The position numbers were made by a program, and so were the translations under genes. DNA of 64,000 bases from Fibrobacterales bacterium Fibro_02 (GTDB lineage: Bacteria > Fibrobacterota > Fibrobacteria > Fibrobacterales > Fibrobacteraceae): the NCBI GenBank assembly GCA_001603905.1, contig LVAE01000008.1:18709-82708 (forward strand). The letters run 5' to 3'. The notes under the pieces were generated by a model, which saw only the letters and a list, made by a program, of their open reading frames with translations, was not told the DNA's origin and made no database searches. Below are positions 6,381 to 13,386 of this stretch, one piece after another (position 1 is the first letter of the stretch; the number at the start of each line of letters is the position of its first letter).

Positions 6381-7583
6381 CTAGAATCGCATTCCGAGGC
6401 TTGGCCACATGCTCGGCGAAATTCCGTCAAAGCGAATGTTGTCCAAGAAAATCTCTGCGTCTTCGGTCACCAAGATGTTGATGGTGTTGACGGCGATAAG
6501 TTCCGTGTCGAAATCGTCGGCGGTAAAAGTGAAATGTTCCCATTCGTCGCCGAGAGTCACGAAGGCGGTCTGGTGGAAGTCTCGCTTGCCGTCGTTGCCG
6601 CGCTTGGTAATTTGCAACGAAATCTTTCCGCTGCCCTTGGCGTCGAACGAAATGGCGGTGGCGCTGCGTAAGTCGTAGAAAGCGAACATTTCGTCTTCGT
6701 CAAAATCGTCGCCGATGGAAAATCCTGCGACGCCGTAATGACCTTCTGTTTCCTGGTCGATATCGAAAATCAGGTGCAGGCTGCTTCCGCTCTTGGCGCT
6801 GTCGCCGCTAACGAGAATCTTGTCGCTGCTGATGCCTTCGGCGACGCGGCTGTTCCCGCCTTGCAGGGAGTCGGTGCAAATAAACCACCAGCCTTGTCCG
6901 AAGCTCTTGCCGATAAAGGTCTGCCTGTGTTTCCAATTTTCAAAGTCTTCGACAACGGTGAAAATGCTGTCGGCGATGTTGATGTGATTTGTCGTGGCGC
7001 CTTCGCTTAGGCCGGTTTCCATCTGGTAAGAGAATTTGCCAAAATAGCCTTCGACGAAGGCGTAGTGCACGCCAGCGGGCAAACCGCTGAATTCAAAGTA
7101 TCCTTGTGCGTCCGTGGTAACGGCTTGGTCTAGAATGCTTACGGTTGCGTTCTCGACGGCCGTGCCGTTGTTGGTGATAATGCCTTTCAGGCTTTCGCTT
7201 TGGGCAATGGCGAGATTCTGCTCCGGACTGCGTTCGAAGTCGACCCAGCGCATAATGGAAAGCGAGTCGCCGGAGCGCATTTCGAGCAGCTGGACGGGGG
7301 CCTTCTTTTCGCTCAAGGCGGCGGAGTTAATCTTGAGAATGCCGTTGTCGTCAAGGGAGTCTTCGTAGGCGACAAGCATGGAATCCTCGTTTAAAATCCA
7401 TACACGGGCGACGGCGTTTTTGAGGGGCATTCCGTGATTGGTGGCTGTAACGATGCCGGCAATTTCGGTTTCGCCGGCGTTGCTGCCTGTACCGTTTGCG
7501 ACAGAATTTTCACTTGTGCTGCAGGCGGTGAATGCGATGCCGAGGCTGGCTGCGAAAAGCGAAAGGGCGAGAATAACCTTCAT
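6381..7583 (-). CDS. Lipoprotein with carboxypeptidase-regulatory-like repeats and CBM11-like domain
   Basis: Lipobox AFTAC; GYFEFSGLPAGVHYAFVEG repeat; VVEDFENW...IFLDNIRFDGI; same architecture as 1745-2968. Confidence 0.65.
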   Translation of the reverse strand: MKVILALSLFAASLGIAFTACSTSENSVANGTGSNAGETEIAGIVTATNHGMPLKNAVARVWILNEDSMLVAYEDSLDDNGILKINSAALSEKKAPVQLLEMRSGDSLSIMRWVDFERSPEQNLAIAQSESLKGIITNNGTAVENATVSILDQAVTTDAQGYFEFSGLPAGVHYAFVEGYFGKFSYQMETGLSEGATTNHINIADSIFTVVEDFENWKHRQTFIGKSFGQGWWFICTDSLQGGNSRVAEGISSDKILVSGDSAKSGSSLHLIFDIDQETEGHYGVAGFSIGDDFDEDEMFAFYDLRSATAISFDAKGSGKISLQITKRGNDGKRDFHQTAFVTLGDEWEHFTFTADDFDTELIAVNTINILVTEDAEIFLDNIRFDGISPSMWPSLGMRF

Positions 7584-8422
7584 TATTTGCCCTCCTTCAC
7601 CTTGGCGCGATTCACGAGCTGAAACCCGACGTGACAGACGCGGTCAGGGTTCTTTTCTTCGCGGGACATGACCAAAATTTTTTCGCGAAGCTTGGCGATT
7701 TCTTCGCGCACCTTTTCGAAACTTTCCTTGGAAAGGCTGCAGGTTACACTGGTGATGCTGCGGTCGTCGCTCGAGAACAGGTCGTAAACTTCGCTATTGA
7801 CTTCGAGGTTCTTCAAATGGTATTTGCGCAGAATGGTAGAGCGCACGCGCGGCGGCGTCGAGATAATTGGCTGCTCGATGCGATAAGTTCCGTCGTCGTT
7901 GAGAGTGACGAATCCGGCTTCCATGAGGTACTTGATTCCGCTTTGCACTTGCGGGGCGCGGAGCACTGGCGTGAACATCCGGCCGATTTTCTCGGCGGGG
8001 GTGTTTGCGGGGAGGAGCGGCAACAAGTCGCGCAAGACGGGGTAGTACCACTTCGAAAAGAACTTGAGGGCGGAATCCTGGAGCTCGAATTCCTGCTTGC
8101 TCGCGCGTACGGCGAGGAGTTTCTTGAGCAGGTTTTCGCGCTCGTCCACGTTTTTTTCGTTGCCGAAGCGGACTAGCGTCAGAAAGTATTCGGTTTCTTC
8201 GTCGGAAAGGCCCCAAGCCTTGGCGAGAGTCTTTGCGTTTGCGGTAGAAAGCGGGCGGGATCCGTCCAGAATGCGGTTGAAGAAGGCGGAACCCGAGACT
8301 CCGGCGCTTTCTTGAATGGAACGGATGGACTGCCCTCTGGATTGCAATGCTTCCACAGCGGCCCGGATATAATCCCGGTAATCAAAGTACATAAATACAC
8401 TAATTATGGAAACATTGTTCAT
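7583..8422 (-). CDS. TIGR02147 family putative regulator
   Basis: FDYRDYIRAAVEALQSRG...SDEETEYFLTLVRF...KFFSKWYYPVLRDLL...VGFQLV; stop overlaps downstream ATG (TAATG). Start could also be 8392. Confidence 0.8.
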   Translation of the reverse strand: MNNVSIISVFMYFDYRDYIRAAVEALQSRGQSIRSIQESAGVSGSAFFNRILDGSRPLSTANAKTLAKAWGLSDEETEYFLTLVRFGNEKNVDERENLLKKLLAVRASKQEFELQDSALKFFSKWYYPVLRDLLPLLPANTPAEKIGRMFTPVLRAPQVQSGIKYLMEAGFVTLNDDGTYRIEQPIISTPPRVRSTILRKYHLKNLEVNSEVYDLFSSDDRSITSVTCSLSKESFEKVREEIAKLREKILVMSREEKNPDRVCHVGFQLVNRAKVKEGK

Positions 8423-9117
8423 ATATTTAAAAATAGATAAAATTTTGATATTGTAAAGTAAACTTTTATTATTTATTGATGAAAATACATAAATAATGGA
8501 AACATAACGGCGGATTTGAACTGTCAAGTATTCCTTGATTGTTCGATTTATAAAATTTACTCCAATTTGGAATATGCAAACCCTTTATTCAACGGTGTTT
8601 TGGGTGCTTTGTTACAAAAAAATGCGATTTCTTTAAATTTTTTATGCATTTTGTTCAATTTTATATTAGTTTTGAAGTGTAAAAGAGTTTTCCTCTTGCC
8701 CTCTAAACGAAATCTCGACCATTTCTAAAACCGAGGACAAGGCGAACGCTCACGCAGGTATGCCGGTTTTGGCGTACTTCAGTTTGCTGTACCGACTTTA
8801 TGGTCGGTCTTTGGTCGTATGGCCAAGGGCAACAGCCCTTTTGGGGCGTGGGTCGTTTGTGTTTATCGGTTTGAGGCAGTCGAGAGCCCCGTTTAGGTAA
8901 ATGCAACGATCTGCGCCTTTTCTTGTATCTACACGAAATTGGCAATCCTTGCTGAGCAGGGGCGAACTCCGGAAATTTCATTGAAGGAGAAATGCGTCGC
9001 TGTCCCTGCGATTTATTCAATGAAAAAAATGAGCTTTTGCAAACGCAAAACGCACCACGTCGAAACCCGCACGGCATGGTGTGTAACAGTGTGCGGGGTA
9101 TACTCTAGAGGTATAAT

Positions 9118-9255
9118 ATGAAAACAACAAAGAAGATGGCTTACAAGAAGCCCCGTCTTATCGCAAAGAACAACCCGACCGGTAGCTTCGCTGCTGGTTG
9201 CCCGACCAATGAGGGCTATGGTGCATTCTGCCGTATTTGTGAACGTACCATGTAA
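9118..9255 (+). CDS. RiPP precursor peptide, Cys-containing, putative radical SAM substrate (45 aa)
   Basis: Manual translation MKTTKKMAYKKPRLIAKNNPTGSFAAGCPTNEGYGAFCRICERTM*; AGAGG ribosome-binding site at 9108-9112; upstream of a SPASM radical SAM gene; absent from the supplied ORF track. Confidence 0.75.
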   Translation: MKTTKKMAYKKPRLIAKNNPTGSFAAGCPTNEGYGAFCRICERTM

Positions 9256-9320
9256 AAAATTTTCCTAAGGTGGGGCAAATCGCCCTGCTTTAGGGATATG
9301 TGTTAATTTAAGGAAATGCA

Positions 9321-9980
9321 ATGATTATAGCTCGTTATTTACTTCATAAAATGAAAGAAGATGCTTTCGTTCAATTTCAAAAAGCTGTTGGTTCGATTTT
9401 TTCATCTATAAAAGGAAACTCATTTGTTTTTGTTTCTCATAACATCCCAGACAGTTCGCAAGATTCACTTTATTCTATTTTGAATGTTGCTGGCATCAAT
9501 AAAGAGCCAAATTCTGAAGATTTACAGATAATTAATCAAATCTTTTCGAATTCGAATCTTCTAACTCAAGATAACATTTCGCAATATCGTATTCAGCATG
9601 CTGATGTTGTCATTGCCCCCTTTGTAAATGATGAAAAAGATTTAGACTTGTTAAGAAAGATTGAAAATCAGGTTGAATGCCGTATTGTTGTTTTGCTTGA
9701 AGGCTCGTTAAAATCGATTAACCCACTTTTGGATGGTTCCGATAAATTATTAGATATCTATAATATAAAATCTTGTTTTGATAGTCAAAACATTTTTTCA
9801 AACGATGTTCAGTGTCGTAATGAAGCAAAAAAATGGTTGTATTCTTTACTAAAATATAACTTGTCATTTAAAGAATATTTATCTCTGTTTGATGATTATA
9901 TGGATACATGCGGATTCGATGAACGAGAAAAGAAAAAACAATTTGAACGAATAAACAATCTAGAAATCTATTTGGATTAA
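9321..9980 (+). CDS. Hypothetical protein in the RiPP locus
   Basis: 219-aa AT-rich ORF with an ATG start, on the same strand between precursor and radical SAM gene; no family recognised. Confidence 0.65.
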   Translation: MIIARYLLHKMKEDAFVQFQKAVGSIFSSIKGNSFVFVSHNIPDSSQDSLYSILNVAGINKEPNSEDLQIINQIFSNSNLLTQDNISQYRIQHADVVIAPFVNDEKDLDLLRKIENQVECRIVVLLEGSLKSINPLLDGSDKLLDIYNIKSCFDSQNIFSNDVQCRNEAKKWLYSLLKYNLSFKEYLSLFDDYMDTCGFDEREKKKQFERINNLEIYLD

Positions 9981-10051
9981 CCCCCTTTTTTAGAACCTCC
10001 CTGTTATCGAGGTCCTTGTTTACTCTCTAAACCTTTTGTAGGAGAAAAAGA

Positions 10052-10273
10052 ATGAAAGCAAAAATTCCGCCGGAGTTAAAAGATCACAAAATCAACAACG
10101 AAAATGGAATATTAGACGAAAATGAAGATTATATACTGAGGAATACAACAGATCTTTCAGAAGAGGAACGAAAAGAAGAAATTCAATTACACAAAAAACA
10201 GGAAGATGAACAGCTTCAAAATTCTTCGGAAATATCAAAATTAACAAAATTTATTTCTAGAGAAGAGGTGTAA
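10052..10273 (+). CDS. Small charged hypothetical protein in the RiPP locus (73 aa)
   Basis: aggagaaaaagaATG start context; stop abuts the radical SAM start at 10274; highly charged, no Cys. Confidence 0.65.
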   Translation: MKAKIPPELKDHKINNENGILDENEDYILRNTTDLSEEERKEEIQLHKKQEDEQLQNSSEISKLTKFISREEV

Positions 10274-11731
10274 ATGTTTTACCGTCAATCTCGCGATACT
10301 TTTATCCGTTCCATCGGTGAGTATGGCTATATCTATAGCCAACTTACCAAACACGACCGTACCTACACTCAGGAAGGATGTGCGTTTCTGTCCGTTATTT
10401 CTCGTGAACCGCAAAGTTTGCAAGATCTTTCGGCAAAAGCATGCGAATACTTTGAAGATGTAACTCCTGAAGATATTCAAAATGACATGAAGGAATTCTT
10501 GGATTCCCTAGTTGCCGACCGCTATTTGGTTTGTGCTGAAAATGCTGAAGAATGTGCTGCTAAGGATACATTCTTTAGTTATGCTGAAAATCCGAAAACA
10601 TTGTTCACATACAACGCTCAACAAAATCCTGATGACAAAAAACTCTATACCGATACGCAAGAACTTTTAGGAGACTGGTTTCGCGAACATCCGCAAATTC
10701 ACAGTTGCCAAATTGAAACGACGAATCGCTGCAACGAGCGTTGTATCCACTGCTACATTCCCCATGAAATGAAAAATGTGGTTTTGCCCTACGAAGTGAT
10801 TGAAAGCGTCCTCAACCAGTTACACGATTTAGGTGTGATGGGATTGACTCTCTCCGGTGGAGAATTATTCACACATCCCGATGCGGAAAAAATTCTGCGC
10901 AAGGCCCGCGAACTTGATTTTAGTTTCTACGTGCTATCGAACATTACTTTGCTTACTCCGCACATGATAGAAGTTCTCAAGGATGTCAATCCAAATTATG
11001 TGCAGACGTCACTTTACAGCGTTGTTCCCGAAGAGCATGACCATATTACTCAACTAAAGGGATCCTGCGAAAAGACAAAGGCCGCTATTGACGCCTTGAT
11101 TGCGGCGAACATACCCGTGCAAATCAGTTGCCCTGTGATGAAGACGAATTATCACACCTATAAAGATGTATTGAAATACGCTTACGAACGCAATTGTAAA
11201 GCACAAACTGACTTCGTGATGATGGCTCGATACGATTTTACTACGGATAATCTTGCTGAACGTTTGACGATGGAACAAACAGAAGAGTTACTCAAGGATA
11301 TCATTCAGTTTGATCGAGACTATTTAAAGTTGACCGATACACCGGTGCCACCTGTTTCTCGCGAAGAATGGGGAAAACAACCTTTCTGTGGTATAGGTAT
11401 GGATAATCTCTGCATCGCTAGCGACGGCATTGTGTATCCGTGTAGCGGTTGGCAGGGGATGGCTTGCGGCAATGTTCGCGAACAACCTATCAAGGATATC
11501 TGGGAAAAGTCCCCGCAACTGAACAAACTTCGCAACCTTACAAAATCTGCGATTCCGCAATGCTACGATTGTGAAGATAAACAGTTCTGTGCTCCATGTC
11601 TTGTTCGTAATTTCAACGAAAGCGGCGGTGATTATCTGAAGGTTGCTCCGCATTTCTGCAAGGCCGCTCACTTGAATCGCAAACTTGTTGTAGAAGCAAA
11701 GGCTAAAATGCGTAAAGAAAAAGCCGGTTAG
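10274..11731 (+). CDS. Radical SAM/SPASM peptide maturase with PqqD-like N-terminal domain
   Basis: CNERCIHC radical SAM motif; GGELFTHPDA; SPASM-type cysteines (PFCGIG...CIASDGIVYPCSGW...CYDCEDKQFCAPC...HFC); N-terminal ~90 aa resembles an RRE/PqqD fold. Confidence 0.9.
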   Translation: MFYRQSRDTFIRSIGEYGYIYSQLTKHDRTYTQEGCAFLSVISREPQSLQDLSAKACEYFEDVTPEDIQNDMKEFLDSLVADRYLVCAENAEECAAKDTFFSYAENPKTLFTYNAQQNPDDKKLYTDTQELLGDWFREHPQIHSCQIETTNRCNERCIHCYIPHEMKNVVLPYEVIESVLNQLHDLGVMGLTLSGGELFTHPDAEKILRKARELDFSFYVLSNITLLTPHMIEVLKDVNPNYVQTSLYSVVPEEHDHITQLKGSCEKTKAAIDALIAANIPVQISCPVMKTNYHTYKDVLKYAYERNCKAQTDFVMMARYDFTTDNLAERLTMEQTEELLKDIIQFDRDYLKLTDTPVPPVSREEWGKQPFCGIGMDNLCIASDGIVYPCSGWQGMACGNVREQPIKDIWEKSPQLNKLRNLTKSAIPQCYDCEDKQFCAPCLVRNFNESGGDYLKVAPHFCKAAHLNRKLVVEAKAKMRKEKAG

Positions 11732-11769
11732 AGATTACCGTGTCACGGTGCTTCTCGCAATGGCAAAAT

Positions 11770-12537
11770 ATGCTTTTCGATTTTCATGTTCACATGGGGC
11801 AGTATTTTGACGACTACTACACGCCGCCACGAATACTGCGTACCCTGCGACTTGCGGGCATTACACACTTCGCGTATTCTAGCACGAGTACGGTTGTTAC
11901 CGATGATCCCGATTTTTTGCTAGAAGAGCGAGTTGCCATGCATGAACTTTCGGAAGGTCGTGCCAAGCCTATTTTGTGGGTGACGCACGATATGCTAAAA
12001 CGCTCGCCAAATTTGTCGCTGTACATGAATGATGCCGGTGGTAAAATTTGTGGGTTGAAAATTCACGGTGTATCGGAAAGTTGGTTGCCGAATGGCCGCG
12101 AACTGCAACGGATATTCAAAATAGCTCAGGAACGGGGCCTGTTTGTGAAACTCCATACCGGTGAACGGGAAGAATGCGAGGCTGGAATGTATAGGGAAAT
12201 CTGCACGAAATTCCCAGATGTCCGAGTTGTTCTCGCCCATGGAAGACCGATTTTGCAAGCTATTGATATGCTGCGTTATTGTCCGAATACCTTTGTAGAC
12301 ACATCGTTCATGCCGCATAGCCATTTTCAGTTGCTTATAAACGTTGCACAGCAAGAAGGCTTTACGGATCGTATCCTATTCGGTACGGACACCCCTATTC
12401 CAGGGCGTCACCTTAAAAGTTCGCTCCCTCGCCATTTGCGAAGTAGAATAGACCAAACAAGGCGAATTGCAGGAGAGGACTGGAAGAAAATCTCTTGGAA
12501 AAATGCGAAAAATCTCTTGACTTTCGTATCGAAATAA
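11770..12537 (+). CDS. Amidohydrolase-family (amidohydrolase_2/TatD-like) metal-dependent hydrolase
   Basis: MLFDFHVHMGQYFDDYY; GLKIHG; VKLHTGE; VVLAHGRP; ILFGTDTPIPG metal-ligand motifs. Confidence 0.8.
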   Translation: MLFDFHVHMGQYFDDYYTPPRILRTLRLAGITHFAYSSTSTVVTDDPDFLLEERVAMHELSEGRAKPILWVTHDMLKRSPNLSLYMNDAGGKICGLKIHGVSESWLPNGRELQRIFKIAQERGLFVKLHTGEREECEAGMYREICTKFPDVRVVLAHGRPILQAIDMLRYCPNTFVDTSFMPHSHFQLLINVAQQEGFTDRILFGTDTPIPGRHLKSSLPRHLRSRIDQTRRIAGEDWKKISWKNAKNLLTFVSK

Positions 12538-12547
12538 GCGATATATA

Positions 12548-13285
12548 TTGATGAGTATGGTTCCCCGCAAGAAAAGTCTTCTAGCGTTTATTTTTACGTT
12601 CCTGTTGCTTTCGGGCTGCGGGCTCAGCGACGATACCCAGGAACAGCTGGAAGATGCCGTTGGCAGGGCTGCAGGTGAAGCTCTGGATTCCGCGAAATCT
12701 AAAACGGCGAACGCTGTTGAAGAACTTTCTACCACTATCGATGAACACGGTGGTGTTCAAGGCTTTTTTGATAGAATAGTCCAATTCATCGATGGATTAT
12801 TTGGAGGCTCTGGAAGCGAGTGCGAAAAAACGCCCGCAAAAAAGATTGAACGTGATGCTCCTAGGACAGTTATCAAGCGCAATGCGGAACAACAGAACTA
12901 CCACGACGAGGTTCTCAGCCTTACCACCTTAAAAACGTCTTCCGTAAACATTGACTGTCTACGCCCTGAACTGGATACCGCCATAAACATAGTGGTAGCC
13001 ACCTATCACGAGGTTTTCAAAGACGACAATTATCGCCCAGTAATCACTAGCGGAAACGATTCCGACAAGCACGGCGAACGATCCGCCCATTACGCCTGCG
13101 CTGCCGTAGACATCCGGATCAAGGATGTGGAAGATGTTAAGATTCGAAAGGCCCTTACAAAGGCCATTACCGAAGACCTTGGCCCCCGATACTTCGTTCT
13201 CCATGAGGACGTCGGTATGGCAAATGAGCATCTGCACATTCAACTGAAAAGCGGCACCTACAATAGAAACGAAGTGTGGAAATAA
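12548..13285 (+). CDS. Lipoprotein with M15/hedgehog-like peptidase domain
   Basis: Lipobox LLSGCG; HYACAAVDIR and EHLHIQLK metal-site motifs. Confidence 0.6.
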   Translation: MMSMVPRKKSLLAFIFTFLLLSGCGLSDDTQEQLEDAVGRAAGEALDSAKSKTANAVEELSTTIDEHGGVQGFFDRIVQFIDGLFGGSGSECEKTPAKKIERDAPRTVIKRNAEQQNYHDEVLSLTTLKTSSVNIDCLRPELDTAINIVVATYHEVFKDDNYRPVITSGNDSDKHGERSAHYACAAVDIRIKDVEDVKIRKALTKAITEDLGPRYFVLHEDVGMANEHLHIQLKSGTYNRNEVWK

Positions 13286-13386
13286 TCCATAAATCTGCTC
13301 ACCCCCTTTTTACAAATCCCCCATAATTAGCGATATAAATAGGGTGGAGTTGAATGACCTCTACTTCGTTTTTTCTGGAGGCTTGT

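Follow-up and report, generated by a model that had tools for sequence, protein, structure and literature searches.

Several described peptide systems resemble the locus examined here in their enzymes and gene arrangement. In CteA/CteB (SCIFF, with a ranthipeptide thioether maturase), a small Cys-containing precursor likewise adjoins a SPASM radical SAM enzyme (RRE-bearing there, RRE-like at its N-terminus here), and CteB is the best PDB structural match of the present maturase (5why/5wgg), with ~15% identity in the structural alignment. However, the precursor found here is unrelated to CteA, an amidohydrolase is its usual partner, and its core is hypervariable. SuiA/SuiB, the streptide system, employs an RRE-SPASM maturase of high structural similarity to the one here (5v1t); streptide contains a Lys-Trp C-C link within a conserved sequence, whereas the core here is variable and Cys-containing. 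SkfB is the best PDB sequence match (7.8e-13) and a top structural match. Compared to SkfA/SkfB and AlbA, the bit scores lie far below the equivalog cut-offs (62.9 against 300 for SkfB and 74.2 against 850 for AlbA), and an exporter operon is absent here. The FibroRumin class (TIGR04136) also comprises a radical SAM peptide maturase, from Fibrobacter and Ruminococcus according to its NCBIfam name. The preliminary description of this DNA had proposed it as a possible match, which did not hold: its model leaves the locus unmatched even at E 0.001, and the weak matches elsewhere in the genome reach at best 51 bits against a cut-off of 400. Prochlorosins and cyanobactins illustrate an established feature of RiPPs, variable cores behind a conserved leader; the enzymes of these systems differ from those here, where strains exchange the core along with neighbouring genes at a locus that is usually present in one copy.

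The window is a 64,000-nucleotide stretch of a contig from Fibrobacterales bacterium Fibro_02, a metagenome-assembled genome of the genus Fibrobacter, and the features of the locus are collected in Table 1. The five open reading frames (ORFs) proposed earlier were all recovered on the plus strand, at or very near the positions given for them; the unit as first delimited was too short, since it reaches ~13306 and includes an M15-like lipoprotein gene. For the amidohydrolase, the ATG is most likely the start codon.

Table 1. Features of the locus and its surroundings (positions in the window)
Feature	Position	Strand	Basis
Genomic island with the whole system	8520-13306		absent at the empty site in G058:C33 (L178)
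Conserved 5′ region before the precursor	9034-9117	+	blastn block of ~170 nt (5′ region and leader codons)
45-aa precursor peptide gene	9118-9255	+	ORF; Cys28/38/41; homologues adjoin maturases
Leader codons 1-29, MKTTKKMAYKKPRLIAKNNPTGSFAAGCP	9118-9204	+	conserved; pN/pS 0.048; alignments
Hypervariable core, TNEGYGAFCRICERTM	9205-9252	+	38 distinct cores in 38; CxxCE retained in most relatives
219-aa orphan ORF, part of the exchanged cassette	9321-9980	+	familyless; insert GC 0.31
73-aa orphan ORF, part of the exchanged cassette	10052-10273	+	familyless
485-aa RRE-like/radical SAM/SPASM maturase	10274-11731	+	CNERCIHC = residues 153-160; Pfam, AF2, Foldseek
Amidohydrolase (Amidohydro_2)	11770-12537 (ATG 11770, or GTG 11740)	+	Pfam 4.9e-15; metal-site residues intact
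245-aa lipoprotein, M15/LAS-like peptidase domain	12548-13285	+	accompanies the island

The maturase matches the Pfam families Radical_SAM (1.3e-20) and SPASM (3.6e-12), and its N-terminus falls just under the PqqD threshold (23.3 bits against 23.4). Across 29 homologues, the radical SAM motif C153-x3-C157-x2-C160 is invariant, as are C372 and C390 of the SPASM region, while C380, C430, C433, C439, C442, and C462 are kept in at least 90%. An AF2 model built on the alignment of these 29 sequences (pLDDT 88.8) superseded a poor one from only 7 sequences (pLDDT 51.8) and contains a confident RRE-like N-terminus of strands and three helices; its best whole-chain PDB matches in Foldseek are the RRE-bearing maturases CteB, SuiB, and SkfB. 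The maturase is accordingly classed as a radical SAM/SPASM enzyme with an RRE-like N-terminal domain, for which leader binding is predicted. None of the NCBIfam equivalog cut-offs is reached by the maturase, and all matches to the curated maturases AlbA, SkfB, and StsB (PapB for relatives) are far below cut-off. In a separate search for defence-system membership, merely generic viperin-type radical SAM matches were obtained, and the assignment was rejected.

The 45-aa ORF can be distinguished from a chance reading frame because 10 other Fibrobacter genomes in which the upstream DNA is assembled have a 45-aa relative (64-84% identity) 5′ of their maturase gene, and because its leader codons show a pN/pS of 0.048. 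Precursor relatives adjoin the maturase at nearly all loci where both are assembled. Of 168 Fibrobacterota genomes, 21 gave a hit to a profile of 11 precursors, two with marginal scores (E ~0.002); the cultured F. intestinalis ATCC 43854 is among them, as is Ca. Fibrimonas, a termite-gut organism. Within the genus Fibrobacter, the distribution is patchy (12/80 genomes). A profile of 19 detected the family in 15 of 390 evenly drawn Verrucomicrobiota genomes, and at each Verrucomicrobiota locus examined the precursor is accompanied by one or more RRE-type radical SAM genes. E-values in these searches are calculated per genome. The preliminary description had named a lack of conservation beside maturase homologues as grounds for abandoning its reading; such conservation is seen in both phyla. 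Its identification of a radical SAM RiPP locus, in which a precursor with Cys residues is paired with a SPASM maturase (RRE-like at its N-terminus), is borne out by the retention of the precursor beside maturase homologues; as expected of a RiPP system, a small precursor that divides into a conserved leader and a separable core adjoins the maturase. What that reading overlooked is the hypervariable core, the cassette exchange, the mobile island, and the near-universal presence of the amidohydrolase as third component. The precursor family itself gave no NCBIfam or Pfam match (11 precursors scanned, E up to 10), and viral contigs searched with A1 (11 precursors) and A2 contained no relatives. 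In the open-access literature, no paper was found that joins Fibrobacter or Verrucomicrobia with such a system, or 'AAGCP' with radical SAM.

Many genomes in the survey are metagenome-assembled. In one of them, an Opitutales genome (G168), a short contig carries a maturase-amidohydrolase pair, while two precursors in tandem are on a separate contig (L108 and L116), a split that could reflect either transfer or mis-binning.

At many loci a conserved 5′ stretch precedes the ORF, and by blastn the ~170-nt block is common to loci at differing chromosomal sites. It could thus be argued that the short ORF is untranslated and is conserved as a regulatory element, in DNA or RNA, that precedes the maturase. 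This explanation is exceedingly improbable, because changes in the leader are almost all synonymous, the frame is maintained through core indels, the same peptide family occurs in Verrucomicrobiota, and no Rfam element was matched.

The precursor is divided into two parts with sharply different evolution. All 38 precursors share the leader motif Y-x-x-P-x-x-x-A…[AS][GD]CP, in which Tyr, Pro, Ala, Cys, and Pro are invariant, whereas no two of the 38 cores are identical; the ending C-x-x-C-[E/D/Y]-x-x-x is found in 26. Among ten Fibrobacteraceae members (nine Fibrobacter loci and L078), the leader value of 0.048, drawn from ~18 synonymous sites, compares with pN/pS of 0.11 for the maturase and ~0.86 for the core loop, the last from a crude and saturated alignment. 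These values argue for purifying selection on the leader and diversification of the core. A redox cofactor precursor like that of PQQ or mycofactocin, with the amidohydrolase as its processing hydrolase, would mirror the general logic of those pathways, in which a SPASM/PqqD-like maturase is joined by a conserved hydrolase. Redox cofactor precursors keep their reactive residues fixed, but here every core differs and only the Cys positions and CxxCE are kept, and so a cofactor role is very unlikely.

One precursor, at L023:3603-3722, has an intact leader and a core that lacks GCP and the loop and runs out of frame into a CLNCERTS remnant; it is a decayed copy. A second radical SAM gene, without an RRE domain, is present at L023:5889-6944, L024:6712-7884, L025:9445-10503, and L078:4365-5615, as only a remnant in L023 and with an internal stop in L024. 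These four are the Fibrobacterota loci whose core end reads C-[L/M]-N-C-E-R-T, a post hoc association of small n that suggests action of the RRE-less enzyme on this motif.

The boundary between leader and core is also a boundary in the DNA. In almost every pairwise comparison, similarity covers the 5′ region and ~87 nt of leader, vanishes where the core begins, stays absent across the intervening ORFs, and returns at the maturase start codon or within a few tens of nucleotides of it. The window and L020 occupy the same chromosomal site (flanks ~95% identical) and do not share the core or inserts: identity stops at 9206, near codon 29, and nothing is alignable until the maturase start. Conversely, L019 and L020 lie at different sites and share both the core and the insert ORFs, with 89% identity over the region. 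The window's maturase is closer to that of L019, at another site (90.7%), than to that of L020, at its own (85.2%). Related inserts with similar core ends are also found in the pair L023/L025, as in L019/L020. The insert GC content is 0.29-0.37, compared with 0.43-0.54 in the flanks. By these comparisons, the core moves between strains together with the AT-rich orphan ORFs, as a single cassette; few independent events underlie the association of core and insert.

The inserts themselves are diverse, from 52 to 317 aa, with different fold classes and one FRG domain, and they co-vary with the core. The earlier designation of the window's two ORFs as orphans was confirmed by the lack of any Pfam, NCBIfam, or PADLOC match, and no other copy of either was found in 80 Fibrobacter genomes. 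No insert ORF exceeds the cut-off of a Pfam immunity family. In Ca. Fibrimonas, no ORFs lie between precursor and maturase, which defines precursor-maturase-amidohydrolase as the minimal unit and indicates that the system can do without a cassette partner or immunity gene. At L079, the FRG-domain protein (6767-7720, minus strand) fills the variable slot between precursor and maturase.

The joint exchange of core and insert ORFs, the two pairs with related inserts and similar core ends, the patchy distribution within the genus, and the AT-richness of the inserts are what would be expected of a polymorphic bacteriocin with linked immunity, in which the peptide would kill closely related strains or hold back their growth, and the swapped ORFs would provide self-protection. 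This is a serious possibility, held somewhat short of even, because no exporter was recognised among the island ORFs, the Ca. Fibrimonas loci dispense with inserts, and the insert ORFs vary widely in size and fold class with no immunity family above cut-off.

The system is also mobile as a whole. In another Fibrobacter genome, at G058:C33 (L178), the window's flanks are 95-96% identical and only 39 bp apart, with 8520-13306 missing, and the system copy of G058 sits on another contig. It could be deduced from this empty site that the whole system, together with the M15-like lipoprotein gene, resides on an insertable island of 4.8 kb. Homologues of the lipoprotein, which has a sub-threshold match to Pfam Peptidase_M15_3 (E 0.013), lie beside the system at several chromosomal sites. 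Among the island ORFs, no transporter or exporter was found with Pfam or NCBIfam, and no dedicated leader peptidase was recognised. Within the island, the upstream stretch 8800-8970 is a dispersed repeat with 8 further partial copies (77-100% identity) in the same genome.

The upstream regions fall into different types. A palindrome, TTACAGATGTCTGTGA, lies ~85 nt 5′ of the precursor in L024, L026, L027, and L078, and a variant ~140 nt 5′ in L080; an XRE-type regulator gene is divergent or nearby in L026, L078, and L080, with a partial copy in L024. A different 5′ region is present in the window and in its closest relatives. Such regulators and the palindrome, together with the diversification of both core and neighbouring genes, would fit a recognition or signalling role, in which the core is a strain-specific signal and the gene for its cognate receptor lies either within the cassette or outside it. 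We regard this as rather unlikely, since the XRE gene is conserved instead of being matched to the core, was not found in the window, and no receptor was recognised.

Beyond the architecture, conservation, hypervariability, cassette exchange, and island, which comparison of the loci establishes, the product is best understood as a polymorphic RiPP that represents a new family and probably acts in competition or recognition. We consider it likely that the locus makes a ribosomal, radical-SAM-modified peptide of an uncurated family, whose core-partner cassette is swapped on an island and which serves competition or recognition. In the proposed mechanism, the RRE-like domain of the maturase would bind the conserved Lys-rich leader, and the enzyme would then modify the variable Cys-containing core. 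From what is known of RRE-SPASM maturases, the core Cys residues are most likely the modified ones, as radical thioether crosslinks. The amidohydrolase might then perform a second tailoring or processing step; like the partner role of the inserts and the part of the peptide in competition or recognition, this is a weaker element of the scheme. Because the leader and maturase are conserved and the core is not, recombination that uses leader and maturase as its anchors could replace the core along with the neighbouring AT-rich orphan genes, and the island itself inserts at more than one chromosomal position. Most probably, these exchanged orphan genes are core-specific partners that confer immunity or recognition, and the peptide itself acts in competition or recognition. 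A fixed leader with swapped core end and neighbouring genes is what one would expect of weapons used among microbes or of recognition signals. More tentatively, one polymorphic system may span Fibrobacterota and Verrucomicrobiota, with leader and maturase as recombination arms, the warhead end and cognate protection or recognition genes as one cassette, and the amidohydrolase as a post-radical-SAM step.

The 38 distinct cores constitute a natural library on which conserved maturases would act. They come from two phyla that have been little mined, with rumen and termite gut among the habitats, and F. intestinalis ATCC 43854 is a carrier available in culture. The system makes it possible to test how RiPP loci diversify through leader-anchored cassette exchange, whether RiPP warheads move together with matched partners in the manner of protein toxins, and which part an amidohydrolase plays in radical-SAM peptide maturation.

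The amidohydrolase is the usual third gene and lies downstream in most relatives. Its metal-site residues HxH, K, H, H, and D are invariant in 8 diverged copies, and two amidohydrolase types, 25% identical, substitute for each other. It was not found at L138, L140, L146, and L148; at some of these loci it may sit in a frame that was not recognised, or at another place. Many Verrucomicrobiota loci have two RRE-type radical SAM enzymes ahead of the amidohydrolase, and the second is the nearer to the window's maturase (35-41% identity). In L142, a glycosyltransferase family 9 gene (6477-8090; the Pfam scan covered L142 only) lies directly 3′ of the amidohydrolase, and similar genes occur in L141, L143, and L149; a glycosylated product is possible at these Verrucomicrobiota loci.
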